From a virus, in the IMG/VR virus record IMGVR_UViG_3300017917_003744, positions 1-23,940 of that record: a DNA stretch of 23,940 nucleotides; one strand, given 5' to 3'. The notes beneath the pieces were generated by a model. That model saw only the letters and a program-made list of their open reading frames with translations. It did no database searches and was not told the origin of the DNA. Position numbers and translations under genes: made by a program. Numbering within the stretch: the stretch's first letter is position 1; every line of letters starts with the position of its first letter. Shown here piece by piece: positions 1-12,801 of this stretch.

Positions 1-4
1 TGAC

Positions 5-2356
5 ATGTTAGATAAATTTGAGGAGTACTTTTTAGATTTTGCATCTGAGAGAGTTAACGTTGAGATACCATACAAAAAATTCAAAGATGTTAAACATGAC
101 AATTTCCAAAATTTATTAAAGTCTATTGTTACTGTTAAGAAAAAAGATTCGGACCCAACAAATACCAATCTCTTAATTAAAACATTAAGAGAACAACAAT
201 TAGAAAATTTAAAAATATTAACAAAAGAGATTTTATCAGAATCTAATCTAATAAAAGTAACAATAGGTAATCCTAAGGAAATCGATTTATATACTTGGAA
301 TGGTTTTGCGGGTATGAGTAATGTTAATAGTTTTTCATATAGAAACTATGATGTTGTACAAATATCAGATGCGGATAACTTATCCAGTTTTGAATTAACA
401 TTAGGTCAAGATATAGATGGATACTATTTACAATTCTTCCAAGTTAATAACATGGAATTTAGTGAGGAATATTTCCTAACTTTTAGACCATTGATTTACA
501 TATATGCAGGTTATAGAAAGGCGGGAGGTACAAATACCAAAACCGCATTCCAAAAATATTTGATTGATAACATTCTTTCATATAATAATGGTAAAAATGT
601 AGGTATTCAAAATAGACAGGATTTATATCTTAATACAATTATTTCTAAATTGGTTGGATTAAAAGGACAAACAAATACAATTCAACAAACAATATTAAAT
701 GGTTATAATGATAGTCCACTTAAACTTGAACAATATAATTACTTTAAATCGTTCAATGATAAATGGGTGGCCGGTAATTCAATCGGTCAAAGATTATTGT
801 TGGAAGAGTTCTTATTTTTAGATAAAGCAAATAAAGATATAGGTGACAAAGCATATTTTAGTTTAGAGAAATTAATACCGTTTGATTCAGCTGAAGATGA
901 TAAACTGAATTTATATAGTATGATTGGTTCCCTAATAAGTGGAACAGGATTCGATATGAGGGGCTTACCCGCTTATGTTAATTTCTACGGTACCAATTTC
1001 TCAAATAAATCTAAATTAACACCATCTAAAAAGGTTGCTCAGAATTTATTTGGTACATTTTTAGAAGTTGATTATCAAGAATCATCACCAAAAATTATAT
1101 TACAATACACAGGACCAACATCTAAACATTTGGAAATGAGTGATATTAATAAAAAATATAATTTTAATGATGACAGTTTTAATGTTGGTGATGCGAATAA
1201 AAACCCATTAGTAATTACCATACCTGATGTGTTTAATAATTCAGATATGTCAAAATCTAATAAGGTTGTTGCTTTTGAGGTTAATTTCGGAGACCAAAAT
1301 CAAAGTATTTTCAAAGGCGTTCAATTAGACCAATCATCAATAAGAAATACATCAGAATCGTTTATTGCTCAAGAGAATTTAGGTAGATCAGAGTCAGGAG
1401 CCAATGCTCATCAAGTTGATATTGGGTTATTTGATGTTTATAGACAAGCGTCATATACTTGTGATGTGACCTGTTTAGGTAATGTAATGATTCAACCAAC
1501 AATGTATTTTTACTTAAAAAATATCCCAATGTTTAGAGGTTCCTATTGGATAACAGAGGTGACTCATAATATTAAGGGAAATAACATAACAACATCATTT
1601 AAAGGGACAAGAATACCTTACGCTTCGTTACCCGACCCTAAAGATTCATTTATATCGAGTTACCGCGCACTATTTGATAAAATTACAAAAAGTGCAATGG
1701 CGAGAGTTAAACAAGAAAGTTTAAATATTTCAGGTTCAACCAAAAATGAAAAATCAATTAATACCGACCAAGGTACATTCACCATTGATATGGGAGGTAA
1801 AGAAAAAGAAATAAAAGGAGAACAATTATTACAAGAAACAGGAGTCACCAAATACGGAGTTAGATATAATGGATATAATGGTGAAAAATATATCCAAAAA
1901 GTTACATATAACGGTAAACAATACTTCAGAGCGATTGCTGTGGGTATGGGAGGTAAAACATACACACCAGATGGAACTATCCAAATGAGTTTATTGAGTA
2001 GACTAACTTCTAGAAAAGTAGAGGGTACAACAACAGACACAAATGGTAATAAAGTTAGTTATCTATCATGGAACGACATCAAAGATAATAAACATAAATT
2101 TTATTCATTGAGATTTGATTTAAGTGTGGTAGGGGCTAATGAAATAATTAAAGCAAAAACGGTATTTTTTAATCCTAAAACAAATAAAGAAACATCAATT
2201 GACCCAATCAATAGTGACCCAATTACAAAAAGTAACATTGTTGGACCAATTACAGTAGGACCAAATATTGATGGTTATGGGGTTGCATTATCACAAACAC
2301 TAATGAGTGAATTGGGATTATATGACGGGGATGTTGTTTATTTCACAATGACATAA
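5..2356 (+). CDS. Large virion structural protein, baseplate-hub-like
   Basis: 783-aa protein, complete in the window; the ATG lies one base after a TGA that may end an upstream gene. There is no signal peptide and no catalytic motif. Residues about 420-450 read as a soluble beta-rich core (FEVNFGDQNQSIFKGV, then NTSESF). Residues about 475-540 hold a stretch typical of tail hub proteins, with MYFYLKNIPMFRGSYWITEV and then a GTRIPYASLP turn; hub proteins of the T4 gp27/gpD class share this kind of 'structure, then re-measured beta-barrel' ending. The last 40 residues (GYGVALSQTLMSELGLYDGD) look like a small barrel domain added at the end. The neighbours downstream are small phage proteins, and a baseplate wedge block lies 10 kb away. 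Being structural is fairly sure; the hub assignment is inference. It could instead be another large baseplate or tail-tip protein. Confidence 0.6.
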   Translation: MLDKFEEYFLDFASERVNVEIPYKKFKDVKHDNFQNLLKSIVTVKKKDSDPTNTNLLIKTLREQQLENLKILTKEILSESNLIKVTIGNPKEIDLYTWNGFAGMSNVNSFSYRNYDVVQISDADNLSSFELTLGQDIDGYYLQFFQVNNMEFSEEYFLTFRPLIYIYAGYRKAGGTNTKTAFQKYLIDNILSYNNGKNVGIQNRQDLYLNTIISKLVGLKGQTNTIQQTILNGYNDSPLKLEQYNYFKSFNDKWVAGNSIGQRLLLEEFLFLDKANKDIGDKAYFSLEKLIPFDSAEDDKLNLYSMIGSLISGTGFDMRGLPAYVNFYGTNFSNKSKLTPSKKVAQNLFGTFLEVDYQESSPKIILQYTGPTSKHLEMSDINKKYNFNDDSFNVGDANKNPLVITIPDVFNNSDMSKSNKVVAFEVNFGDQNQSIFKGVQLDQSSIRNTSESFIAQENLGRSESGANAHQVDIGLFDVYRQASYTCDVTCLGNVMIQPTMYFYLKNIPMFRGSYWITEVTHNIKGNNITTSFKGTRIPYASLPDPKDSFISSYRALFDKITKSAMARVKQESLNISGSTKNEKSINTDQGTFTIDMGGKEKEIKGEQLLQETGVTKYGVRYNGYNGEKYIQKVTYNGKQYFRAIAVGMGGKTYTPDGTIQMSLLSRLTSRKVEGTTTDTNGNKVSYLSWNDIKDNKHKFYSLRFDLSVVGANEIIKAKTVFFNPKTNKETSIDPINSDPITKSNIVGPITVGPNIDGYGVALSQTLMSELGLYDGDVVYFTMT

Positions 2357-2401
2357 GAATATTAACAAATTTGGGATATTTATACAATATAAAAGAATAT
2401 T

Positions 2402-2602
2402 ATGGAAAATAATAAAATTAATGCGGTAGATCAGTTCTTAAATCCAAAACAAGTTAGAAATGTTTTTAACGATGGTATGGAAAGAGAAGAATGTGATGTG
2501 GTAACTGGTGAATGTTACACAATTAGAGAAAAAGACGGAATAGTAGAAAGAATAAATAAAAAATACGTTACAAACGACGGTAGACAATTATTACAAGATT
2601 AA
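2402..2602 (+). CDS. Conserved small phage protein of unknown function
   Basis: 66-aa acidic/basic mixed protein with no membrane segment. The central part has ECDVVTGECYTIREKDGIVER and the C-terminus KKYVTNDGRQLL. From memory of the group, small proteins with a 'VTGECY...DGLVER...DGRQLL' pattern recur in T4-like phages of aquatic bacteria, so this looks like a real conserved gene with no assigned role. The two cysteines, eight residues apart, could bind a metal or form a disulfide, but nothing else supports that. It starts 45 bases after the hub-like gene and ends 3 bases before the next ATG, so it is probably co-transcribed with the following gene. No Shine-Dalgarno sequence is visible. Confidence 0.75.
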   Translation: MENNKINAVDQFLNPKQVRNVFNDGMEREECDVVTGECYTIREKDGIVERINKKYVTNDGRQLLQD

Positions 2603-2605
2603 GCC

Positions 2606-3253
2606 ATGTTAGAACAAAAATTACAAGAAGAATTAAATCGTTATAAAGCCATTAACAAATATGGTAAAACGATGATAATGGAACAAGAAGTACCACCTGC
2701 AGACCCTGCGGCTATACCGCCAGCGGACCCAGCGGCGACTGACGCTCCACCTGCTGATGCAGCACCTTTAGATGTACCACCAGCAGACCCAGCGGCAGCA
2801 CCTGCAGATGTACCAGCTCCTGAAGATACAACGGAAGAAATTGATATTACAGATTTAGTTAATATGACTAAGAGTCTTAAAAAAGATATCGAAGATAATA
2901 AAAACGATAATACAAATGTGGTAGGTAAAATGGATGATGTTTTTACTAAGTTATCAGATTTGGAAACCAAATTGTCACAAATGGACCAAGTTATGGCTAA
3001 GATTGACCAATTAGGTACACAAATCCAACAAGTAAAACCTCAAAGTCCTCAAGAAAAACTTGAAATGCGTTCTTTGGATTCATATCCATTTAACGAGAAA
3101 CCACAAGAATTTTTTGCACACAAACAAGGTGAAATGCAAGCAAGCGGTAAGAATGAGTATGTTTTAACAAAAGATGAAGTTGTTAACTACCCAGCCGACA
3201 CAATAAAAACCTCATTCAATCCAGAACAACAAGAAGATGAATATAAGTTCTAA
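2606..3253 (+). CDS. Pro/Ala-rich coiled-coil protein, probable virion-associated
   Basis: 215-aa protein in three parts. Residues 1-28 form a charged helix (MLEQKLQEELNRYKAINKYG). Residues 30-72 are a low-complexity linker built on PPADPAA units. Residues about 77-150 are a predicted coiled coil with spaced hydrophobics (LVNMTKSLKKDIEDNK, then LSDLETKLSQMDQVMAKIDQL). The C-terminal 60 residues are polar and contain SLDSYPFNEKPQEFF. The linker codons are GC-richer than the surrounding genes. The design (flexible linker plus coiled coil) fits a structural or scaffolding-type protein, but no family is recognised and the function is unknown. The gene starts 3 bases after its upstream neighbour, and its last 17 bases overlap the next gene. 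Confidence 0.75.
   Translation: MLEQKLQEELNRYKAINKYGKTMIMEQEVPPADPAAIPPADPAATDAPPADAAPLDVPPADPAAAPADVPAPEDTTEEIDITDLVNMTKSLKKDIEDNKNDNTNVVGKMDDVFTKLSDLETKLSQMDQVMAKIDQLGTQIQQVKPQSPQEKLEMRSLDSYPFNEKPQEFFAHKQGEMQASGKNEYVLTKDEVVNYPADTIKTSFNPEQQEDEYKF
2693..2821 (+). repeat. PPADPAA coding repeat (residues 30-72 of the coiled-coil protein)
   Basis: Degenerate tandem repeat encoding units such as PPADPAA and PPADAA, about 43 residues long. It is GC-richer than its surroundings. It likely forms an extended flexible linker between the N-terminal helix and the coiled coil. Confidence 0.75.
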
Positions 3254-3608
3254 TGTAAATTTTTTAGTAGGTTTACAATTACAATTAAAAATATGTCATT
3301 GGCAAACTAAAGGTATTGCAAGACACAACGCATTTGGTGGTTTCTATGATGATTTAACTCCATTGATTGATGATTTTATAGAACAAGCGATGGGTAAATA
3401 TGGTAGATTTGTATTGGATGACGAAACAAAAACAATACAGTTGGCGAATTTATCAGATATTGATATTAAAGGAATGGTTAATACAACAAGAGAAGCCTTA
3501 ATACAATTTAACGAACAATTTGATTCAACAGATACAGATTTATTAAACTTAAGAGATGAAATTTTAGGATTGGTAAATAAGTACTCGTATTTGTTCACAA
3601 TGGAATAA
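3237..3608 (+). CDS. Dps/ferritin-like small protein (DUF5856-like)
   Basis: 123-aa all-helical protein. Residues 13-57 match the first two helices of Dps mini-ferritins: LKICHWQTKG corresponds to the conserved 'xxHWxxxG' start, then H30, then LIDDFIEQ. Aligned by eye, H21, H30, D45 and E49 fall on the Dps ferroxidase ligands (H30 to D45 is 15 residues and D45 to E49 is 4, as in E. coli and Listeria Dps). The loop between the two histidines is three residues shorter, and the extra Asp four residues after the second His is a glycine (G34). At 123 aa it is shorter than typical Dps (about 150-170 aa). T4-like phages carry a family of this kind annotated DUF5856. The ATG lies inside the 3' end of the upstream gene (17-base overlap), giving translational coupling. 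Iron binding is possible but unproven; it may be only a fold relic used structurally. Confidence 0.75.
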   Translation: MNISSNVNFLVGLQLQLKICHWQTKGIARHNAFGGFYDDLTPLIDDFIEQAMGKYGRFVLDDETKTIQLANLSDIDIKGMVNTTREALIQFNEQFDSTDTDLLNLRDEILGLVNKYSYLFTME

Positions 3609-3631
3609 AAAAATATAAAATAATATAAATT

Positions 3632-3859
3632 ATGCAATCAGGTTCAGCGGCAAGAATAGCCTCAAATACAGTTACAAGTTCATTATCACATATTGATACA
3701 TTAATATCAGGAGCAACTGCTCAAGGTTTATATTCTATTATGGTTGAGGGATCTAGAATTAATTCTTCAATGGTAACAACATTAAAATCATATGGATACA
3801 CCGTAGATGCCGTTTTTGATACCATGGGAACATACCCAAGATATGTGATATCGTGGTAA
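3632..3859 (+). CDS. Small phage protein of unknown function
   Basis: 75-aa protein with N-terminal Ser/Ala-rich helix (SAARIASNTVTSSLSHIDTL) and a C-terminal part with alternating hydrophobics (GLYSIMVEG, then LKSYGYTVDAVF, then YPRYVISW). The pattern 'helix, then G-x-Y-x-I, then L-x-x-x-G-Y-x-V' is often seen in small phage structural proteins, but I cannot name a family. It is the last gene before the terminator at 3885-3913 and starts 23 bases after the Dps-like gene. No membrane segment or cysteine is present. Confidence 0.7.
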   Translation: MQSGSAARIASNTVTSSLSHIDTLISGATAQGLYSIMVEGSRINSSMVTTLKSYGYTVDAVFDTMGTYPRYVISW

Positions 3860-3884
3860 TCTAAAATTTATTTAAAAAAACTTT

Positions 3885-3913
3885 AACCCGGATTTCTCAA
3901 TTCGGGTTTTTTT
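3885..3913 (+). terminator. Rho-independent terminator after the first gene block
   Basis: AACCCG (3885-3890) pairs perfectly with CGGGTT (3903-3908) across a 12-nt loop and is followed by an unbroken T run to 3913. It lies 26 bases after the stop of the 75-aa gene and 45 bases before gp32, so it separates the two units. Confidence 0.85.
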
Positions 3914-3958
3914 ATGTATATTTTACTATAACGTTTTAAAAACTTAAATTTAATTATT
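3914..3958 (+). promoter_or_regulatory. Likely promoter region for the gp32-type gene
   Basis: These 45 A/T-rich bases lie between a strong terminator and the gp32 start, so a promoter for gp32 is expected here. TAAATTTA (3945-3952) is one base off the Bacteroidetes -7 consensus TAnnTTTG, but it lies only 6 bases from the ATG and there is no clear -33 element. A T4 late-type TATAAATA is absent. The call rests mainly on position. Confidence 0.3.
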
Positions 3959-4807
3959 ATGTCTACATTTGACGCAGTACTAGCACAGTACGAGAAAAAC
4001 AAGAACAACGCCACAAGTGGCAACGCAAACAAAGTATCCCAAGAGGATAGAATGAAGAAGTATTTCACTACCGTATTACCTAAGGGTTCTAAAGGTGAAG
4101 AAAGACGTATTCGTATTTTACCTACTAAAGATGGTTCTTCACCATTTGTTGAGGTATATTTCCACGAAGTTCAAGTGGATGGTAAGTGGGTTAAATTATA
4201 TGACCCTAAACAAGAAGGTAAACGTTCTCCATTACATGAAGTTTACGAGGGATTAATGATGACAGGTGTCGATGCTGATAAAGAATTGGCTCGTACATAC
4301 CGTTCACGTAAATTCTATATTGTAAAAGTAATCGACCGTGACCACGAAAATGACGGTGTTAAATTTTGGAGATTTAAACACAATCACAAAGGTGACGGTA
4401 TTATGGATAAAGTATTCCCAATTTTCCGTAACAAAGGTGATATCACTAACCCTGATACAGGACGTGATTTAATCCTTTCTTTAGCATTAACTAAATCAGG
4501 TAATGGTAAAGAATACACAACAATCAATTCAGTAATTCCTGAAGATGCGGGTCCATTACACACGGATTCTGATATTGCAAAAACATGGTTAGACGATGAA
4601 TTAACATGGTCTGATGTTTATTCTAAGAAAGATGAAAACTACTTAGAATTAGTTGCAAGAGGAGAAGCTCCACGTTGGGATAGTGACCAAAAGAAATATG
4701 TGTCATCTTCTACAAGTGAAGAAGTAATCGCAGCACCTAAAGCACCAACAGCACCTGTGGTAGACCCACAAGATGATGAAGATGTTGATGGTGATTTACC
4801 ATTCTAA
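3959..4807 (+). CDS. 32: Single-stranded DNA-binding protein, T4 gp32-like
   Basis: 282-aa protein with the three-part gp32 layout. The N-terminal B-like region holds FDAVLAQYEKNK, then the core starts at MKKYFTTVLPKGSKGEERRIRILP. The core holds FVEVYFHEVQVDGKW, ARTYRSRKFYIVKVIDRDHE and GRDLILSLAL, typical of the T4-type OB fold. The acidic tail ends in DDEDVDGDLPF, the kind of tail that in T4 gp32 contacts the replication and recombination proteins. It is slightly shorter than T4 gp32 (301 aa). The whole protein has no cysteine, so the zinc site of T4 gp32 (one His, three Cys) is absent. It would coat single-stranded DNA at forks and in recombination. Arg codons are mostly CGT, unlike the AGA-rich tail genes, which fits high expression. 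Terminators on both sides make it a one-gene transcription unit. Confidence 0.93.
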   Translation: MSTFDAVLAQYEKNKNNATSGNANKVSQEDRMKKYFTTVLPKGSKGEERRIRILPTKDGSSPFVEVYFHEVQVDGKWVKLYDPKQEGKRSPLHEVYEGLMMTGVDADKELARTYRSRKFYIVKVIDRDHENDGVKFWRFKHNHKGDGIMDKVFPIFRNKGDITNPDTGRDLILSLALTKSGNGKEYTTINSVIPEDAGPLHTDSDIAKTWLDDELTWSDVYSKKDENYLELVARGEAPRWDSDQKKYVSSSTSEEVIAAPKAPTAPVVDPQDDEDVDGDLPF

Positions 4808-4816
4808 TAATACTAT

Positions 4817-4871
4817 AGGACCCTCATTAAAGTAAACGCCACCACGTTGAAATAATGAGTGGTCCTTTTTT
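4817..4871 (+). terminator. Long nested-hairpin terminator after gp32
   Basis: AGGACC (4817-4822) pairs with GGTCCT (4861-4866), and CTCATTA (4823-4829) with TAATGAG (4853-4859), giving 13 base pairs with one bulged T at 4860. The 23-nt apical part holds a second small stem, AACG (4835-4838) with CGTT (4845-4848). A T run spans 4866-4871. The stem is much longer than needed for termination, so it may also protect the gp32 message from 3' exonucleases. Confidence 0.85.
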
Positions 4872-4885
4872 AAAAAAACAAAACA

Positions 4886-5866
4886 ATGGCAGGAATTAAA
4901 AAAACAGATTTTTCGGCAATTAAGAAGAAATTCTCAAAAGAAGCCGAATACAAAGCCGACCGATTCTTCGATTTAGGAGATGCGTTTTTAGAGGCTACGG
5001 GTATTCCAGGTCCAGCTATGGGTCACATCAATATGTTATTAGGACATAGTGATACAGGAAAAACTACAGCGTTAGTAAAAACGGCGGTTGACGCACAAAA
5101 GAAAGGTATCCTACCTGTGTTTATTATTACAGAACAAAAATGGAGTTGGGAACACGCTACATTGATGGGATTTGATAAAGACGGTGAATATCTTTTCAAT
5201 AGTGATTTCGAATACATCGAACAAATCACTGACTACATCAACGAATTGATGGATGCTCAAGAAAAAGGTGACATTCCTTATGATATGTTATTCCTTTGGG
5301 ATTCAGTAGGTTCTGTTCCTTGTAAAATGACTTATGATGGTAAAGGTGGTAAACAACACAACGCATCAGTTTTGGCTGATAAGATTGGAATGGGTATCAA
5401 CCAACGTATCTCAGGTTCAAGAAGAACAGATAAACCTTACACAAACAGTTTGGTTATTGTTAACCAACCTTGGGTAGAATTACCTGACAATCCTTTTGGA
5501 CAACCAAAAATCAAAGCTAAAGGTGGTGAAGCCATTTGGTTAAACTCATCATTAGTATTTTTATTCGGTAACCAAAAAGGTGCAGGTACTACTAAAATCT
5601 CTATCACTAAAGATAAGAGAAAAATCAGAATCGCTACACGTACTAAAATCTCAATCAGTAAGAACCACATCAATGGTGGTGGATATGAGGATGGACGTAT
5701 CTTGGTAACTCCACAAGGATTTATGCATGGTAAAGACGATACTGAAGAAAAACGTTCTATCGAAGAGTACAAACGTGATAACGGAGAGTACATCGGTAAA
5801 CAATTAGGTGTTAATGTTACAGACATCGCAGATACACAAGTTGTAACAGAGGAAAGTGATTTATAA
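4886..5866 (+). CDS. uvsX: UvsX-like RecA-family recombinase
   Basis: 326-aa strand-exchange ATPase of the RecA/RAD51 fold. Walker A is GHSDTGKTT with the lysine at residue 59, preceded by a GHINMLL strand. The Walker B strand MLFLWDS ends in D139. Between them FIITEQKWSWEHATLMG carries the expected catalytic Glu region, and NQPWVELP followed by an AKGGEA turn is typical of UvsX. The tail is acidic (TQVVTEESDL). It is shorter than T4 UvsX (about 390 aa), mostly at the N-terminal end. It would form filaments on gp32-coated single-stranded DNA and start recombination-dependent replication. The gene follows gp32 after a terminator and is the first of the replication cassette. Many Arg codons are CGT. 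Confidence 0.93.
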   Translation: MAGIKKTDFSAIKKKFSKEAEYKADRFFDLGDAFLEATGIPGPAMGHINMLLGHSDTGKTTALVKTAVDAQKKGILPVFIITEQKWSWEHATLMGFDKDGEYLFNSDFEYIEQITDYINELMDAQEKGDIPYDMLFLWDSVGSVPCKMTYDGKGGKQHNASVLADKIGMGINQRISGSRRTDKPYTNSLVIVNQPWVELPDNPFGQPKIKAKGGEAIWLNSSLVFLFGNQKGAGTTKISITKDKRKIRIATRTKISISKNHINGGGYEDGRILVTPQGFMHGKDDTEEKRSIEEYKRDNGEYIGKQLGVNVTDIADTQVVTEESDL

Positions 5867-5878
5867 TAATATTTTTTA

Positions 5879-6901
5879 ATGTCTGTTTTATTAGTAGATG
5901 GCGACAATTTACTTACGATTGGTTTCTATGGTGTTAAAAACGCCTTTCATAAGGGAGAACATATTGGAGGAATTTATCATTTTCTCAATACTCTTAGAAG
6001 AACATTTGAGACGTACAATTTAGACAAGATAGTTGTATTTTGGGATGGAATTGAGGGTTCCCAAACTCGTAAGAAAATATATGCACCATACAAAGAAAAC
6101 AGAAAATCACGTCTTCGTTCTGAAGAAGAAGTAAATTCTTACACATACCAAAGAGATAGAATCAAACAATATCTTGAGGAGTTATTTGTAAGACAGGGAG
6201 AATATGAGTATTGTGAGACCGATGACAACATCGCTTACTATACTCAGAATTCACCTAACGAAAATAAAATCGTTTATTCTTCAGATGGTGACCTAACTCA
6301 GTTAGTTTCAGAGAATACACAAATTTACAATCCGTCACACGGAAAACTTTACAAACAAAAAGATACAATTGTTTACAACCACGAGGAAATTTTAATCGAA
6401 AATGTTAAATTGGTTAAGATGATGTGTGGAGATTCTTCAGATAACATTGCTGGCATAAGAGGAATGGGAGTTAAGAGATTTTTATCTGTTTTCCCTGAAC
6501 TAAAAACTGAACAACTTTCTGTTGAACAAGTTAAGAACAAATGTGAGGAAATCTTTCAACAAGATAAGCACAACAAACTTATTGCGAATTTACTAACAGG
6601 CGTTACCAAATATGGAGTATTAGGTGAGGAATTTTTTGATGTAAACAATCGTATCGTTAGTTTGGACGAACCTTTTTTAACCGACGAGGCTAAAGAGAAT
6701 ATAAATTTATTAATAAATGAAAATTTAGACCAAGAAGGTAGGTCATATAAAAATGCAATGAGAATGATGAGGGATGACGGATTATTCAATCTATTACCAA
6801 AATCAGATGATGGATTTGTTAATTTTCTAAACCCATTTCTTCGATTAACAACAAAAGAAAAAAATAAAAAAAAAACAATTAAAGTAAAAAACTATGAGTA
6901 A
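5879..6901 (+). CDS. rnh: T4 RNase H-like 5'-3' exonuclease / flap endonuclease
   Basis: 340-aa FEN-family nuclease. Metal-ligand motifs appear in family order: VDGDN (D7, D9), FWDG (D56), ETDDNIAY (E113, D115, D116), SSDGDLTQL (D136, D138) and CGDSSDNI (D185, D188). The last is followed by GIRGMGVKR, the helix-hairpin-helix-like DNA contact. The basic stretch KKIYAPYKENRKSR (65-78) lies where the arch helix of the family starts. SSDGDLTQL followed by a NPSHGK turn closely resembles T4 RNase H. It would remove RNA primers and 5' flaps during lagging-strand synthesis. It is slightly longer than T4 RNase H (305 aa), with a Lys-rich tail (TTKEKNKKKTIKVKNYE). It overlaps the next gene by 8 bases (ATGAGTAA), which suggests coupled translation. 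Confidence 0.9.
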   Translation: MSVLLVDGDNLLTIGFYGVKNAFHKGEHIGGIYHFLNTLRRTFETYNLDKIVVFWDGIEGSQTRKKIYAPYKENRKSRLRSEEEVNSYTYQRDRIKQYLEELFVRQGEYEYCETDDNIAYYTQNSPNENKIVYSSDGDLTQLVSENTQIYNPSHGKLYKQKDTIVYNHEEILIENVKLVKMMCGDSSDNIAGIRGMGVKRFLSVFPELKTEQLSVEQVKNKCEEIFQQDKHNKLIANLLTGVTKYGVLGEEFFDVNNRIVSLDEPFLTDEAKENINLLINENLDQEGRSYKNAMRMMRDDGLFNLLPKSDDGFVNFLNPFLRLTTKEKNKKKTIKVKNYE

Positions 6902-7343
6902 TCAACAATTTGACATTACAAAGTTTGAGTTTCTTTTAACATTAGAAGGAAACATTATCTGCCAACGTTTCTTCAATGTGAAAGATCACGTTCAGGAATC
7001 TCGCCGTTCAATGGATTTACACTATTATGTAAAAAATATTTGTGAAGATATTGCGGAAGATTTGAAAATAAAAAGTTCCGATTATTTGTGTGAAAATCAA
7101 AATTATTTCCTATCTTCGGACTATGTGGAAGATTCGCCAGAAAAGGACAGAGAGCATTTTTTATTAGTCATTAAGTTAAATGACGATGTATTTATTCAAA
7201 GAATATTCCCAGCATATTACTACCACCCAAAGGTTAGGTATACTGTTGATATTCGTCCAAAGTTGAAGCGTATTTTGTCAGACTTAACTGACATCTTGTC
7301 TTCAGAAGAATTGGAAACCACATACTTGAACTACGAACTATAA
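6894..7343 (+). CDS. Unknown protein of the replication cassette
   Basis: 149-aa soluble alpha/beta protein with no family I can name. Visible features are a strand-rich start (FEFLLTLEGNIICQRFFNV), a helical centre (LHYYVKNICEDIAEDLKIK), an aromatic stretch (RIFPAYYYHPKVRYTVDIR) and a helical C-terminus (KLKRILSDLTDILSSEELE). Its start is inside the end of the nuclease gene and the helicase follows 27 bases later, so it is very likely co-expressed with fork proteins. A helper for helicase loading or fork assembly (in T4, gp59 does this) is a guess from position only; there is no visible sequence match to gp59, which is also larger. Confidence 0.8.
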   Translation: MSNQQFDITKFEFLLTLEGNIICQRFFNVKDHVQESRRSMDLHYYVKNICEDIAEDLKIKSSDYLCENQNYFLSSDYVEDSPEKDREHFLLVIKLNDDVFIQRIFPAYYYHPKVRYTVDIRPKLKRILSDLTDILSSEELETTYLNYEL

Positions 7344-7370
7344 TTTAAAAACATATAATAACAAAACACA

Positions 7371-8744
7371 ATGGAAGAAAAGAATTTTGGATATCTCGGA
7401 TTTACATTTCAACAATCACTAATAAAGGCAATCATAGAAGATAAAAAGTATGGGGAAACAATCATTGATGTAATTGAAAGTAAGTTTTTTGATAATAATT
7501 CATTTAGATTTATTATGGAAAACATGAAAGAACTTTACAAGGCATACAATAAAATACCTAATTATGATACGTTGGCTCAAAAGATAATGGCTGAAGGTGG
7601 TAACAAAGATTCTTCCAAAGTTCATGTTGACACGTTAGAGGCAATAAAAGATAACGAAGCTCAAACCGAATATGTAAAAGACACCGCTCTAAATTTCTGT
7701 AAACAACAGAACTTAAAAAAAGAACTAAAAGGTGTTCAACATATTATTGATAATGGTGATTTCGAATCTTACCATAAGATTGAGGAAATTATTCAAAAGG
7801 CATTACAAGTTGGTATTACTAATGACGATGCTACCGATGTGTTTCACGGTATTGACGAGGCTTTAGAGAGTGATTATCGTTTACCAATCCCAACAGGTAT
7901 TGTTGGTGTTGATGAAGTATTGAAAGGTGGATTGGGAAGAGGTGAATTAGGTGTTGTATTGGCACCAACTGGTACAGGTAAAACAACTTTACTTACTAAA
8001 TTTGCTAATACTGCATATAATTTAGATTTCAATGTACTTCAAATATTCTTCGAAGATAATCCGGGTAATATTAAAAGAAAACACTATACAATTTGGACTG
8101 AAATTACTCCAGACGAACAACCTGAATTTAAAGAGGAAGTTAAAAGAAAAGTAGAGGAAGTACAGGCAAGATCAAAAGGTAGTTTAAAATTATTAAAACT
8201 TGCGAGTGACCATATAACAATTTCAGATATTAAATCTAAAATTAGAAAAATGAACTCGGAAGGATTTAAAGTTGATTTATTAATTATCGATTATATTGAT
8301 TGTGTGTCCGCAGAAAAGTCAACTAACGGAGAAGAATGGAAAGGTGAAGGTTCTGTTATGAGAAGTTTAGAGGCGATGACTGGTGAGTTTGACATGGCAA
8401 TTTGGACAGCAACACAAGGTAACCGTGAATCAATTTCATCTGAAGTTGTAACAGGAGACCAAATGGGAGGTTCAATTAAGAAAGCACAAATCGCACACGT
8501 TATCTTATCTATTGGTAAAACATTAGAACAAAAGGAACATAACTTAGCAACTTTAACATTACTTAAGTCACGTATTGGTAGAGACGGTATTATTTGGCAG
8601 AACTGTAAATTCAATAATGAATTCTTAGTTATTGATACAGAATCACAAAATACCTTATTAGGTCACGAAGAACAAAAAGTTCAAAACAATCAAAATAGAG
8701 CGAGAGAAGCTTTCCTTAAAAGACAAGAATTAGCAAAAAAATAA
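7371..8744 (+). CDS. 41: Replicative DNA helicase, DnaB/T4 gp41-like
   Basis: 457-aa hexameric helicase. The N-terminal third (FTFQQSLIKAIIEDKKYG, then FRFIMENMKELYKAYNKIP) is the DnaB-type helical primase-interaction domain. The RecA-like motor begins at about residue 175 with IPTGIVGVDEVLKGGLGRGE. Walker A is APTGTGKTT with K204, and Walker B is LLIIDYID with D307. TATQGNRES (about 345) holds the sensor Gln/Asn, and HVILSIGKTLEQKEHN with KSRIGRDG near 400 carries the arginine-finger-like residues of the family. It would unwind the phage fork ahead of the polymerase. Length is close to T4 gp41 (475 aa). No primase gene is adjacent in this window. NrdB follows 13 bases later. Confidence 0.93.
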   Translation: MEEKNFGYLGFTFQQSLIKAIIEDKKYGETIIDVIESKFFDNNSFRFIMENMKELYKAYNKIPNYDTLAQKIMAEGGNKDSSKVHVDTLEAIKDNEAQTEYVKDTALNFCKQQNLKKELKGVQHIIDNGDFESYHKIEEIIQKALQVGITNDDATDVFHGIDEALESDYRLPIPTGIVGVDEVLKGGLGRGELGVVLAPTGTGKTTLLTKFANTAYNLDFNVLQIFFEDNPGNIKRKHYTIWTEITPDEQPEFKEEVKRKVEEVQARSKGSLKLLKLASDHITISDIKSKIRKMNSEGFKVDLLIIDYIDCVSAEKSTNGEEWKGEGSVMRSLEAMTGEFDMAIWTATQGNRESISSEVVTGDQMGGSIKKAQIAHVILSIGKTLEQKEHNLATLTLLKSRIGRDGIIWQNCKFNNEFLVIDTESQNTLLGHEEQKVQNNQNRAREAFLKRQELAKK

Positions 8745-8757
8745 ATAACAAAAAAAA

Positions 8758-9729
8758 ATGACAGAGAAAATTTTACAAGACAACCCGGGGAGGTTCGTTC
8801 TATTCCCTATCGAACACCATGATTTATGGAAGTTCTATAAACAATCAGAAGCGTCTTTTTGGACTGCAGAAGAAATTGATTTAGGTCAGGATGTATCGGA
8901 TTGGGAAAACAAATTAAATGCGGACGAACAACATTTTGTTAAACACGTTTTAGCGTTTTTTGCGGCATCCGATGGAATCGTAAATGAAAATTTAGCTATG
9001 AACTTTGTTAATGAAGTACAATATACTGAAGCTAAGTTTTTCTATGGTTTTCAAATCATGATGGAAAATATACATAGTGAAACGTATTCGTTATTAATCG
9101 ATACGTTGATTAAAGATAAAGATGAACAACATAGATTATTTAACGCAATTGAAACTGTACCTGCAATTAAGAAAAAAGCAGAATGGGCAATTAAATGGAT
9201 TAATTCTGATTCATTTGTTGATAGACTATTAGCGTTTGCTGCTGTGGAAGGTATTTTCTTTTCAGGTTCATTCTGTTCAATTTTTTGGTTAAAGAAAAGA
9301 GGTTTATTACCAGGTTTAACATTCTCAAATGAGTTAATTTCACGTGACGAAGGTATGCACTGTGATTTTGCTTGTCATTTATATAACAATCATATTGAAA
9401 ATAAAATTTCAAAAGAAAGAATTAAAGAAATTATCTGTGGTGCGTTAGAGATTGAAAAGGAATTTATTCTTGAAGCATTACCGGTAAGATTGATTGGTAT
9501 GAATTCAGATTTAATGTCACAATATCTTGAATTTGTTACTGACAGATTATTGGTAGCTTTAGGTGTTCCTAAAGTTTACAATTCTGAAAATCCATTTGAT
9601 TTTATGCAGAACATTGCATTACAAGGTAAAACAAATTTCTTCGAGAAAAGAGTTGCCGAATATCAAAAGGCAGGGGTGAATAACGTTTCGGAAGATTTAG
9701 ATTCCGCATTTGGTGACGTAGATTTTTAA
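8758..9729 (+). CDS. nrdB: Class Ia ribonucleotide reductase, small (radical) subunit
   Basis: 323-aa R2 protein. All iron ligands of the di-iron radical site can be read: D72 ([11 protein letters not shown]), E103 and H106 ([10 protein letters not shown]), E164 ([10 protein letters not shown]), E198 and H201 ([11 protein letters not shown]). The radical tyrosine is Y110, seven residues after E103. The stretches [12 protein letters not shown] and [20 protein letters not shown] make it eukaryote-like rather than E. coli-like, a type also found in Bacteroidetes. The C-terminus (SAFGDVDF) resembles the tail by which R2 docks on R1. It makes the tyrosyl radical that NrdA uses to reduce ribonucleotides to deoxynucleotides. 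The gene precedes nrdA by 15 bases, the reverse of the T4 order. Confidence 0.96.
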
Positions 9730-9744
9730 AATAGTTAACAGAAA

Positions 9745-12186
9745 ATGAAAGTAAAAAAGAGAGACGGTTCCTTAGAGGAAATGAGATATGACAAAATTAC
9801 TAAACGTATTAGTGTTCTTTGTCACGATTTAAATATGGAGTATATTGACCCCACCTATGTTACATTAAAAGTAACACAAGGTATCTATGATGGTATTTCA
9901 ACAACAGAATTAGATGTATTAGCGGCAGAAACTGCGGCATCTATGGTTACAACACATCCTGATTATGCAAAATTAGCTGGTCGTTTAGCGGTTTCTAATT
10001 TACATAAAACAACACCAAAGAAATTCTCACAATCAATTAAAGAATTATATTCTTTTATTGAACCTAAAACAGGTAAAGAATCATCACTAATTGATGAAGA
10101 TGTTTATCATTTTGTGATGTCAAATAAAGAAGTATTAGATGGTGCAATTCAACAAGACCGTGATTTGGATTTTGATTACTTTGGTATAAAGACATTAGAA
10201 CGTTCTTATTTGTTAAAAATTGGTTCACGTATTGTTGAAAGACCACAATATCTTTATATGAGAGTTGCGGTTGGTATTTGTAAAGGTGATGTACAAATGG
10301 CATTAAGAATATATGACGATTTATCACAACACTTTTATACACACGCAACCCCAACATTATTTAATGCGGGAACAAAAAGACCACAAATGTCTTCTTGTTT
10401 TTTAATTGGTAACAAAGGTGACGATATTGATGGATTGTTCGATACAATAGCGGACGTTGCAAAGATTTCTAAGTGGGCTGGTGGTATTGGATTACATGTA
10501 CATGATGTTCGTGCTAAAGGTTCATATATTAAAGGAACTGGTGGAGAATCTGACGGTTTATTACCAATGATGAAAACTTATAATGAAGTTGCACGTTGGA
10601 TTAATCAAGGTGGGAAACGTAAAGGTTCATTTGCAATTTATTTAGAACCATGGCATGCTGATGTTCTTGAATTTATTGATTTAAGAAAAAATCATGGTAA
10701 AGAAGAAATGAGAGCAAGAGATTTATTCTTAGCAATGTGGACTCCAGATTTATTTATGAAGCGTGTTGAAGAAGATGGTGATTGGACATTGTTCTCACCT
10801 GATGAGGCACCTGGTTTATCTGACGCTTATGATACACCTGAAGAGAAAACTTTTACCATGTTGTATGAATCATATGAACAACAAGGTTTAGGTAGAAAGG
10901 TTATGAAGGCAAGAAAATTAATGGATGCAATCTTAACCGCACAAATTGAAACGGGAACCCCTTATATGTTATATAAGGACCCCGCAAATTATAAATCAAA
11001 TCAAAAGAACTTAGGTACAATTAAGTCATCTAACTTATGTACCGAAATTATAGAATACTCATCACCAACAGAACAGGCTGTTTGTAATTTAGCATCAATC
11101 GCATTGCCTAAGTATATCATCGATGGTAAGTTTAATCACGAACTATTGTATGAAAATACCTACCAAGTTGTAAAGAACTTGAACAACGTAATCGATTTAA
11201 ACTTTTATCCAACGGAAGAAACAAAACGTTCAAATTTCAAACATCGCCCTGTTGGTTTGGGTGTTCAAGGATTGGCTGACGTATTCTGTCAATTAGGTAT
11301 TGGTTTTGAAAGTGATGCTGCTGACCAATTACAAACAGATATATTTGAAACAATATATTTTGCGGCAATGACATCATCAAATGATTTAGCAAAAGAATTT
11401 GGTGCTTATGAATCAATTTCAGGTTCCCCAATTGAAAAAGGTATTTTCCAATTTGAAATGTGGGGTAAAACTGATAAAGATTTGTCAGGTCGTTGGGATT
11501 GGAAAAAATTAAGAAAAAGTGTAATTAATTATGGTGTAAGAAATTCATTATTAGTTGCACCGATGCCGACAGCGTCTACTGCACAAATCTTAGGTAACAA
11601 TGAAGCGTTTGAACCATTCACAACAAACCTATATTCACGTAGAACATTAAGTGGTGAATTTATTATGATTAATAAACATCTTGTTAATGATTTATTGAAA
11701 CTTAATTTGTGGAATGAAGGAATGAAAAATAAATTGATTATGGAAAACGGATCAGTTCAAAATATTCCTGAAATACCTACAGAAATGAAAGAGGTTTATA
11801 AGACTGTTTGGGAAATGTCTCAAAAGAGAATTTTACAAATGGCGGCGAACAGAAGTATTTTCATTGACCAATCACAATCATTGAATTTATTTATTGACAA
11901 CGCAACTAAACCTAAGTTATTGGCTGCACATTTATTCGGTTGGAAATTAGGTTTGAAAACTGGTATGTACTACTTAAGAACTAGAGCGGCAGTTGATGCA
12001 CTTAAAGGATTAGGTGTGGACACTTCAGCATCAAAACCCGTTGAATCTTCAACAGGACAACAGTCCGCAGTTTATCCAACGACACCGACTAACAATCCAA
12101 TTATTAGTGAAAACACACCTGAATTGGAAATGATTACAGAAAGACCAACAGATTCTCCATTTGAATGTGAGGGTTGTGGATCATAA
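9745..12186 (+). CDS. nrdA: Class Ia ribonucleotide reductase, large (catalytic) subunit
   Basis: 813-aa R1 protein, complete. Residues 1-90 are an ATP-cone (KVKKRDGSLEEMRYDKIT, then KLAGRLAVSNL), the overall-activity allosteric site. The active site is intact: C218 (SSCFLIGN) and C447 (AVCNLAS) form the redox pair, and N430, C432 and E434 lie in SSNLCTEII. Y742 and Y743 (GMYYLRTRA) are the radical-transfer pair. The C-terminus ends in CEGCGS (C808, C811), the swinging dithiol reduced by thioredoxin or glutaredoxin. Spacings are almost the same as in human RRM1. With NrdB it would raise the dNTP supply during phage replication. A long linker rich in Pro, Thr and Ser (about 760-800) precedes the C-terminal dithiol. 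It is the last gene of the replication cassette. Confidence 0.96.
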   Translation: MKVKKRDGSLEEMRYDKITKRISVLCHDLNMEYIDPTYVTLKVTQGIYDGISTTELDVLAAETAASMVTTHPDYAKLAGRLAVSNLHKTTPKKFSQSIKELYSFIEPKTGKESSLIDEDVYHFVMSNKEVLDGAIQQDRDLDFDYFGIKTLERSYLLKIGSRIVERPQYLYMRVAVGICKGDVQMALRIYDDLSQHFYTHATPTLFNAGTKRPQMSSCFLIGNKGDDIDGLFDTIADVAKISKWAGGIGLHVHDVRAKGSYIKGTGGESDGLLPMMKTYNEVARWINQGGKRKGSFAIYLEPWHADVLEFIDLRKNHGKEEMRARDLFLAMWTPDLFMKRVEEDGDWTLFSPDEAPGLSDAYDTPEEKTFTMLYESYEQQGLGRKVMKARKLMDAILTAQIETGTPYMLYKDPANYKSNQKNLGTIKSSNLCTEIIEYSSPTEQAVCNLASIALPKYIIDGKFNHELLYENTYQVVKNLNNVIDLNFYPTEETKRSNFKHRPVGLGVQGLADVFCQLGIGFESDAADQLQTDIFETIYFAAMTSSNDLAKEFGAYESISGSPIEKGIFQFEMWGKTDKDLSGRWDWKKLRKSVINYGVRNSLLVAPMPTASTAQILGNNEAFEPFTTNLYSRRTLSGEFIMINKHLVNDLLKLNLWNEGMKNKLIMENGSVQNIPEIPTEMKEVYKTVWEMSQKRILQMAANRSIFIDQSQSLNLFIDNATKPKLLAAHLFGWKLGLKTGMYYLRTRAAVDALKGLGVDTSASKPVESSTGQQSAVYPTTPTNNPIISENTPELEMITERPTDSPFECEGCGS

Positions 12187-12192
12187 AAATAA

Positions 12193-12244
12193 TGGAAGAC
12201 TCCCTCAAAGTATGACTGTCGACAAGGCGTACCTTGGTCTTCCA
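12193..12244 (+). ncRNA. Hairpin A of a structured non-coding region downstream of nrdA
   Basis: TGGAAGAC (12193-12200) pairs perfectly with GTCTTCCA (12237-12244). Inside it CAAGG (12223-12227) pairs with CCTTG (12232-12236) over a CGTA loop, and this inner stem abuts the outer one directly. The 22 bases 12201-12222 are left free, including CCCTC. It is not followed by a T run, so it is not a simple terminator. No known RNA family was recognised. Confidence 0.5.
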
Positions 12245-12245
12245 G

Positions 12246-12277
12246 GTTTTGAGAATACAGGGGGTGAATATCAAAAC
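12246..12277 (+). ncRNA. Hairpin B of the structured region downstream of nrdA
   Basis: GTTTTGA (12246-12252) pairs perfectly with TCAAAAC (12271-12277) over an 18-nt loop. Five G bases in the loop (12260-12264) could pair with CCCTC (12202-12206) of hairpin A, with one G-U pair, forming a loop-loop contact. It begins one base after hairpin A. Confidence 0.45.
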
Positions 12278-12285
12278 ACTATATT

Positions 12286-12312
12286 AAACCCAGCTTCGGC
12301 TGGGGTTTTTTA
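12286..12312 (+). terminator. Rho-independent terminator with UUCG tetraloop after nrdA
   Basis: CCCAGC (12289-12294) pairs with GCTGGG (12299-12304) over TTCG, with flanking A-T pairs, one unpaired G (12305) and a T run at 12306-12311. It ends the replication and reductase cassette, 37 bases before the gp25-like gene. Confidence 0.9.
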
Positions 12313-12348
12313 TTTATTACCATTTCATAATAGTTTATATTTATTGAT

Positions 12349-12801
12349 ATGGCGGTAAAATACGGAATAGATTTTCCATTTAGAGACAGTATGGAAGGTC
12401 ATTATTTAAAAATGACTACAACACCCGAAAGGGAGGTTAGAGCTAATTTAATACATCTTTTATTAACTAAGAGAGGTACTAGATATTTCTTACCTGATTT
12501 CGGTACAAGATTATATCAATTCATTTTTGACCAAAATGATATGGTTACTTGGGGATTAATTGAAGAAGAGATAAGAGAATCGGTAAAAAAATACATACCA
12601 AATTTAGATATAACAAATCTTGAAGTGATTTCAGCAGAAGATGACCCTGATAATATAAAAACATTTTCAAATGATGAAGATGAAAGACTTTTTAGAGTTT
12701 CAGATAGTTCAACTAAACCATATACTGCTAAAGTAAAAATAGAATATACAGTTAATAACGGAGCATTTACAACTTCAGACTTTATAATATTAAACATTTA
12801 A
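12349..12801 (+). CDS. 25: Baseplate wedge protein, T4 gp25-like
   Basis: 150-aa protein of the gp25/GPW family, which forms the inner baseplate next to the sheath and is conserved in all contractile injection systems. The family core is TPEREVRANLIHLLLTKRGT followed by RYFLPDFGTRLYQFIFD, with the conserved RG-x-R and P-x-FGT-x-L patterns (residues about 26-65). Next are a helix (LIEEEIRESVKKYIPNLDI) and a C-terminal beta part (YTAKVKIEYTVN). Length is as usual for the family (T4 gp25 is 132 aa). The gp6-like gene begins one base after the stop, as expected for partners in the wedge. It starts 37 bases after the terminator, so a promoter is expected between 12313 and 12348, but no clear consensus is visible. 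Confidence 0.9.
   Translation: MAVKYGIDFPFRDSMEGHYLKMTTTPEREVRANLIHLLLTKRGTRYFLPDFGTRLYQFIFDQNDMVTWGLIEEEIRESVKKYIPNLDITNLEVISAEDDPDNIKTFSNDEDERLFRVSDSSTKPYTAKVKIEYTVNNGAFTTSDFIILNI

Follow-up and report, generated by a model that had tools for sequence, protein, structure and literature searches.

A compact RNA structure has been identified 3' of the gene nrdA in a T4-like phage record (IMG/VR record IMGVR_UViG_3300017917_003744), of which the window, i.e. the whole stretch of 23,940 nucleotides that was analysed, is a fragment. The element occupies positions 12193-12279 of the plus strand, is matched by two covariance models (R1 and R2), and comparative data demonstrate that it is a real, conserved and strand-specific RNA structure, and an independent unit whose core is kept in very different places. 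Judged against Rfam 15 and the open-access literature, it is a previously unlisted phage RNA class. As regards its role, the reading we favour, at a probability of roughly 0.5, is that of an autonomously folding phage RNA which in the window forms part of the nrdA 3' UTR, is stable and acts in trans on a widely conserved partner.

The window carries genes for a gp32-like protein, a RecA-like protein, a 5'-3' exonuclease, a DnaB-like helicase, nrdB and nrdA, downstream of which come gp25 and a baseplate wedge protein. The gene upstream of the element, nrdA (9745-12186, plus strand; Pfam Ribonuc_red_lgC/lgN and ATP-cone), encodes the class I RNR large subunit; its stop codon is at 12184-12186 and gp25 starts at 12349. 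A sequence-only reading of the intervening DNA, the interpretation of which is partly supported by the present data, had proposed consecutive stem-loops, and its parts are all in place: the stem formed by TGGAAGAC (12193-12200) and GTCTTCCA (12237-12244), that formed by GTTTTGA (12246-12252) and TCAAAAC (12271-12277), and the other stems as well. It was also correct in assigning terminator function to the third hairpin alone. This intrinsic terminator of the RNR transcript (12289-12312, plus strand), a CCCAGC-TTCG-GCTGGG hairpin (12289-12304) and a T run, is an ordinary one which lies 3' of the element and outside the RNA family. Further downstream, a GTTTATATTTAT box (12333-12344) is found directly 5' of the gp25 start codon; being conserved in nearly all RNR-locus relatives and rare by chance, it probably serves these phages as the tail block's late promoter.

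Minimum free energy folding recovers both stems, and the segment 12187-12312 is more stable than most shuffled versions of it (z -2.16; 5 of 200 shuffles equally good), an advantage that shrinks when the terminator is left out (z only -1.30; 22 of 200). Single-sequence thermodynamics is therefore weak support for the structure, and it is the comparative data that settle its reality. An alignment of 53 distinct relatives, annotated with helices A-B-C-D plus E and F, has 97.1% of its cells paired and double-sided changes at 14 of 31 pairs, with a covariation of 0.227 against 0.116 +/- 0.006 in shuffled alignments (0 of 500), while slid-register controls on the same relatives are each less than 53% paired. 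Covarying pairs in both stems, the absence of which among relatives would have counted against a compact structured RNA, are thus present, and that proposal stands.

The individual parts, all on the plus strand, are as follows. Helix A joins UGGAAG (12193-12198) to CUUCCA (12239-12244), is paired in 99.1% of cells and shows double changes at three of six pairs, one pair being distributed as UA:32/AU:21. It had been drawn from the sequence as an 8-bp outer stem, which holds for this phage but not for the family, where it comprises 6 bp (12193-12198/12239-12244). In the longer version, the two terminal pairs compete with a pseudoknot and are confined to close relatives of the window phage. This pseudoknot, helix B, pairs ACUCCCU (12199-12205) with AGGGGGU (12259-12265), the latter in the loop of hairpin D, over 7 bp that include variable pairs (AU:27/GC:18/GU:6 and UG:40/GU:5/CG:4/AU:3); taken alone, it is 98.6% paired with a covariation of 0.235 versus 0.110 in shuffled data (0 of 500). 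The loop-loop contact suggested earlier is hence real as a pseudoknot, but in the register then proposed (12202-12206/12260-12264) covariation does not rise above shuffled values. Hairpin C (12222-12237), with a CGUA loop at 12228-12231, is paired in 98.4% of cells and includes a CG:46/UA:7 pair; it has five pairs in the window (12223-12227 CAAGG / 12232-12236 CCTTG), and the hairpin covaries strongly in the O-type set described below. The dinucleotide CG at 12220-12221 pairs with loop bases 12228-12229 to form helix F, a 2-bp second pseudoknot which closes within this inner hairpin. Helix D, composed of GUUUUGA (12246-12252) and UCAAAAC (12271-12277), shows double changes at six of seven pairs. 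The small and variable hairpin E (AGU-AUG-ACU, 12209-12217) is paired in 92.5% of cells in close relatives and is longer, replaced or absent in other family members. Two unpaired segments flank the 3' strand of the pseudoknot, AUAC on its 5' side (12255-12258; A 133/134, U 134/134, A 134/134, C 127/134 of the unique cores) and GAA on its 3' side (12266-12268; 132/134, 134/134, 134/134).

The family core measures about 65-90 nt and is built of two nested pseudoknots, with 4-6 bp in helix A, 7 bp in B, 5-6 bp in C and 2 bp in F, to which a closing helix is added. In D-type members, including the window element, helix D closes the loop that contains the second pseudoknot strand, while in O-type members the core as a whole is surrounded by an outer helix, O, and D is replaced by a small hairpin. 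When the 33 O-type sequences are aligned, 96.3% of cells are paired, with double changes at 18 of 31 pairs and a covariation of 0.256 versus 0.067 shuffled (0 of 500). A G.U pair in helix A and a U.G pair in B are kept without exception in all 33 members, which identifies the element as an RNA of this strand; a DNA cruciform or packaging site, which had also been considered, is ruled out by the invariant G.U pairs. The window core was parsed with all class features (the A/B/C/F core, RCNCCCU...AGGGNGY, AUAC and GAA); the class additionally has conserved unpaired YAA, and its unpaired conserved bases are common to high-GC and low-GC phages. Among the 134 unique cores, the first pair of helix F is CG in 80, AU in 35, GC in 14, GU in 3 and UA in 2; since the core parser required at least one F pair, the completeness of F (100%) is partly by construction, whereas its variety is not. 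Each variable helix of the D- and O-type sets, which were aligned separately, shows covariation, and so does the F pair. Model R1, which was trained exclusively on O-type members outside the RNR locus, has a single best match, the element of the window (28.6 bits, E 4e-5; next 12.7), and because it was built without any RNR-locus member, this ranking indicates homology across contexts. Model R2 matches window positions 12181-12279 at 113 bits, the next best match scoring 12.6.

In 80 nrdA relatives taken from IMG/VR, the element lies 7-10 nt 3' of the nrdA stop codon in about half, the remaining ones having the terminator only or, in a few cases, a shortened, core-less element. On the nrdA tree, presence and absence require at least seven changes, at least five of them on well-supported branches, which shows the element to be accessory. 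Seven nrdA-locus alleles in the tree lack the conserved C/F/E core, a loss that needs at least five origins; six of them (L015, L016, L026, L043, L059 and L074) retain A, B and D, and L067 is mostly deleted. Helix B still pairs in several core-less RNR alleles. The loss represents either decay or a sign that the bare pseudoknot has a cis structural role at this locus. The same core is found behind class I nrdA, a second nrdA type and class II RNR. Two further observations concern the RNR genes themselves. In L093, L105, L133 and L240, the exact pre-gp25 site of the class I genes is taken by a class II-like RNR, in some cases together with a small Cys-rich ORF, and the RNA element is retained. 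In L210, L216 and L219, nrdA upstream of the element appears to be split by an intein in which an endonuclease ORF is nested, the frames ending ..ELIEGDDIVTV and then ..ITGNGCVSHNTAQILGNNEAF.

The succession of an aptamer-like architecture and a terminator in the window could be taken to indicate a riboswitch aptamer controlling RNR readthrough into the baseplate genes or, elsewhere, tmRNA or tRNA production, and a phage tmRNA gene with a glutamine-riboswitch-like domain (glnA motif) has been reported (PMC9004378). This reading is nonetheless quite improbable. In a terminator-type riboswitch, the terminator belongs to and competes with the aptamer; here, it is kept in all 60 testable nrdA 3' flanks, whether these have a full element, a core-less one or none, and its arms are variable, show no conserved alternative pairing and have sequences unrelated to the element. 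Such independence makes the element unlike an aptamer driving that terminator. Moreover, the tail gene has its own conserved GTTTATATTTAT box, and the contexts compared have neither a downstream gene nor an expression platform in common.

When IMG/VR was scanned with pieces of the core, a procedure that yields a lower bound on contexts, the core was recognised in at least 195 distinct contexts from very different phages; the RNR/gp25 locus accounts for 93 of these, a class that is over-represented since the search started from that locus. The tmRNA 5' leader contributes 18 copies among the matches listed, all 18 of which begin just 3' of a TAnnTTTG promoter box. In others (L264, L278, L281, L302, L340, L221, L233 and L238), the element lies within the tmRNA itself, 3' of the tag stop codon, a position assigned by ARAGORN in 8 of the at least 195 contexts and by Rfam in some more. 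It is also found directly 3' of tRNAs (L255, L260, L286, L308, L314 and L339), within the tRNA array of L154, close to HNH or tail genes in high-GC phages, and in two huge phages, LR756504 (636 kb), where it lies about 50 nt 3' of a tmRNA, and LR756500 (462 kb; L370).

Some of these contexts show additional features. In L154, positions 1-10318 hold a 23-tRNA array in which the element is one of many long spacers that are probably structured. In L370, a second structured RNA candidate, flanked by TAACTATTGGA and TCCAATAGTTA, follows the element at 1570-1700. A second module common to the phage tmRNAs of L264, L288 and L340 lies 3' of the tag and reads GGTCAGAGCTC..GACCAGGTTGTTT..GTTCCCACA..ATCAAAC; it may be a further conserved pseudoknot. 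Predicted tmRNA tags end ..TEEVTVA in L287, L288 and L326 instead of the usual ..ALAA, and ..AVAA in L264 and L340.

That several phage tmRNAs embed the element after the tag stop codon raises the idea of a tmRNA pseudoknot module, a structural replacement for one of the tmRNA's own pseudoknots, which escaped to other loci. We consider this hardly probable at all. Location within tmRNA applies to a minority of contexts only, many carriers have leader or trailer copies, and tmRNA was not detected in several RNR-type records of 160-208 kb, although other records have both; the former records indicate that the element can do without a phage tmRNA. In addition, tmRNA pseudoknots are not known to have a core as invariant in sequence as that seen here.

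Copy number was assessed in 47 phage records of up to 636 kb, most of which had been chosen as carriers so that they inform copy number and not prevalence: a single copy is present in 40, two copies in one and none in six. These six are three RNR relatives without the element at the locus, LR756508 and two relatives available in culture, Flavobacterium phage immuto and Microcystis phage Mel-JY01, in which a scan found the element absent. The only genome among the 47 with two copies, G778 (the record of L241), holds divergent ones at 5281-5377 and 33862-33945, one between tail genes and the other in a gene-poor stretch. A repeat or mobile element is ruled out by the usually single copy per record. 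The earlier suggestion of a phage small RNA, a message-stability element or a regulator of nrdA or the tail genes fares unequally in the light of these data: the small RNA is the best of the three, and the regulator finds no support, because the same RNA occurs behind unrelated RNR types, in tmRNA, tRNA and other contexts, nearly always as one copy per record, and because the terminator is indifferent to its presence.

The element has so far been observed in phages only. Searches of Rfam 15 with the window and members of five other contexts returned no family at the gathering threshold, which bears out the initial impression that it is not a known riboswitch or ribozyme; matches were limited to the surrounding tmRNA and tRNA genes, with weak E-value-mode matches far below gathering. 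BLAST against 50,697 phage records retrieved two huge-phage genomes only, with the element annotated in neither, and no description was found in the open-access literature on phage tmRNA, structured RNA and ribozymes. The 18-base core has 7 matches in bacterial genomes, about the chance expectation and none with the rest of the motif. Model R1 found nothing in 395 genomes from the phylum of one Bacteroidales MAG, nor did a strict pattern in 346 genomes from the phylum of Nocardiopsis, both weak negatives due to strict filters.

It is conceivable that the element serves in cis as an RNA-protection or insulation module, its pseudoknot blocking exonucleases or helicases and so stabilising the attached RNA; it would then guard the 3' end of nrdA mRNA, the 5' end of pre-tmRNA and the spacers between tRNAs. 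The element indeed has the same orientation as the accompanying RNA in every case, be it at mRNA 3' ends, at precursor 5' ends or between tRNAs, and a protective scaffold would explain why bare A+B+D, with B still pairing, survives core loss in several RNR alleles. This explanation is unlikely, as a general protector would be expected many times per genome, whereas 40 of 41 positive records are single-copy, and it would have no need for conserved unpaired bases common to high-GC and low-GC phages.

The strongest alternative, albeit a fairly unlikely one, is that of a new self-cleaving ribozyme which might cut phage transcripts beside tRNAs, tmRNA or the stop codon of nrdA. In topology, its succession of strands, A5'-B5'-C-A3'-D'-AUAC-B3', matches the HDV-like P1a-P2a-P3-P1b-P4-J4/2-P2b, and in O-type members the order P1-P2-P3-P1-P4-P2 is supported by covariation (A5'-B5'-C-A3'-D'-B3'); D-type members, including the window element, have no separate P4 hairpin. 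The HDV consensus comprises a 7-bp P1 and a catalytic C in J4/2, followed by a purine/A before P2b. Neither the long P1 nor the catalytic C is found here, since helix A has just 4-6 bp and AUAC-A, present in nearly all 134 cores, replaces the strand with the catalytic C; in addition, the Rfam searches match no HDV-like or other ribozyme family. A ribozyme would agree with the size, the double pseudoknot and the conserved unpaired AUAC, GAA and YAA, and the exchange between O- and D-type helices has a precedent in the non-circular permutation of hammerhead ribozymes (PMC10085705). HDV-like theta ribozymes adjoin phage tRNAs, lying within +/-5 nt of the 3' end and mostly within +/-1 (PMC10879173), whereas in the tRNA-array members helix A lies at no fixed distance from the tRNA ends called by ARAGORN (4, 5, 5, 10, 10 and 22 nt), which is at odds with a cleavage site no more than 5 nt from the tRNA 3' end. 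Further points against self-cleavage are the usually single copy per genome, even amid dozens of clustered tRNAs, the fact that cleavage would split those tmRNAs in which the element is embedded, the several RNR alleles that lost the core and kept A+B+D, and a pattern scan for the tail-first permuted strand order, which gave no match. Pseudoknot-stimulated stop-codon readthrough was considered as well and is ruled out by the variable lengths of the element, which leave no conserved downstream frame.

A trans-acting RNA is the best reading of a conserved element which is usually single-copy, accessory and phage-only, and the core of which stays constant despite its changing address. In the window, it would be transcribed as the 3' UTR of an nrdB-nrdA transcript ending at the terminator 12289-12312, fold autonomously and persist as a stable RNA. 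Its position and copy number suggest that it may act in trans, as an abundant structured RNA, and not on the adjacent genes, a setting favouring abundance being provided by promoter-led tmRNA leaders and by tRNA, tmRNA and RNR transcripts as carriers. Host translation or RNA machinery would be the first suspect as its partner because of the association with tmRNA and tRNA genes. On the other hand, tmRNA-embedded copies are not obviously separate molecules in several phages, and the core-less RNR alleles and the one genome with two divergent copies are also difficult to accommodate. Worded more broadly, to include catalysis, we think it somewhat probable that this is an RNA exclusive to tailed phages with varied hosts and genomes of up to 636 kb, trans-acting or catalytic against conserved host machinery, and carried as one accessory copy that has moved among RNR, tRNA, tmRNA and own-promoter loci with its double-pseudoknot core almost invariant.

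Few structured RNA classes are known to be phage-exclusive and yet recurrent across unrelated phages. This one is experimentally tractable: its consensus is tight, it has two pseudoknots that covary strongly along with the other helices, constructs of both O- and D-type are at hand, and simple patterns suffice to search for it. The link to tmRNA and tRNA genes together with frequent gain and loss points to translation or RNA turnover as the object of a conflict between phage and host, which is currently reported by no annotation pipeline.

With respect to known systems, HDV-like and theta ribozymes also enclose a hairpin in two interleaved helices, with a fourth hairpin and the closing strand to follow, and are likewise phage-borne and often tRNA-adjacent; the element differs in that its extra 2-bp helix joins other strands and in that it also occurs within tmRNA. 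With exonuclease-resistant and mRNA 3'-end stabilising RNAs it shares a compact pseudoknot at transcript ends (12187-12284, ahead of the terminator), but it is usually present once per phage genome, has a conserved unpaired core and is not restricted to transcript ends. The glutamine riboswitch in phage tmRNA (PMC9004378) is similarly an autonomous structured domain inside tmRNA, with no sequence or Rfam relation to the element, which is devoid of an expression platform. Finally, the tmRNA pseudoknots PK2-PK4 resemble it in that some phage tmRNAs carry a compact pseudoknot 3' of the tag stop codon, whereas the element has an invariant core and most of its members reside outside tmRNA.
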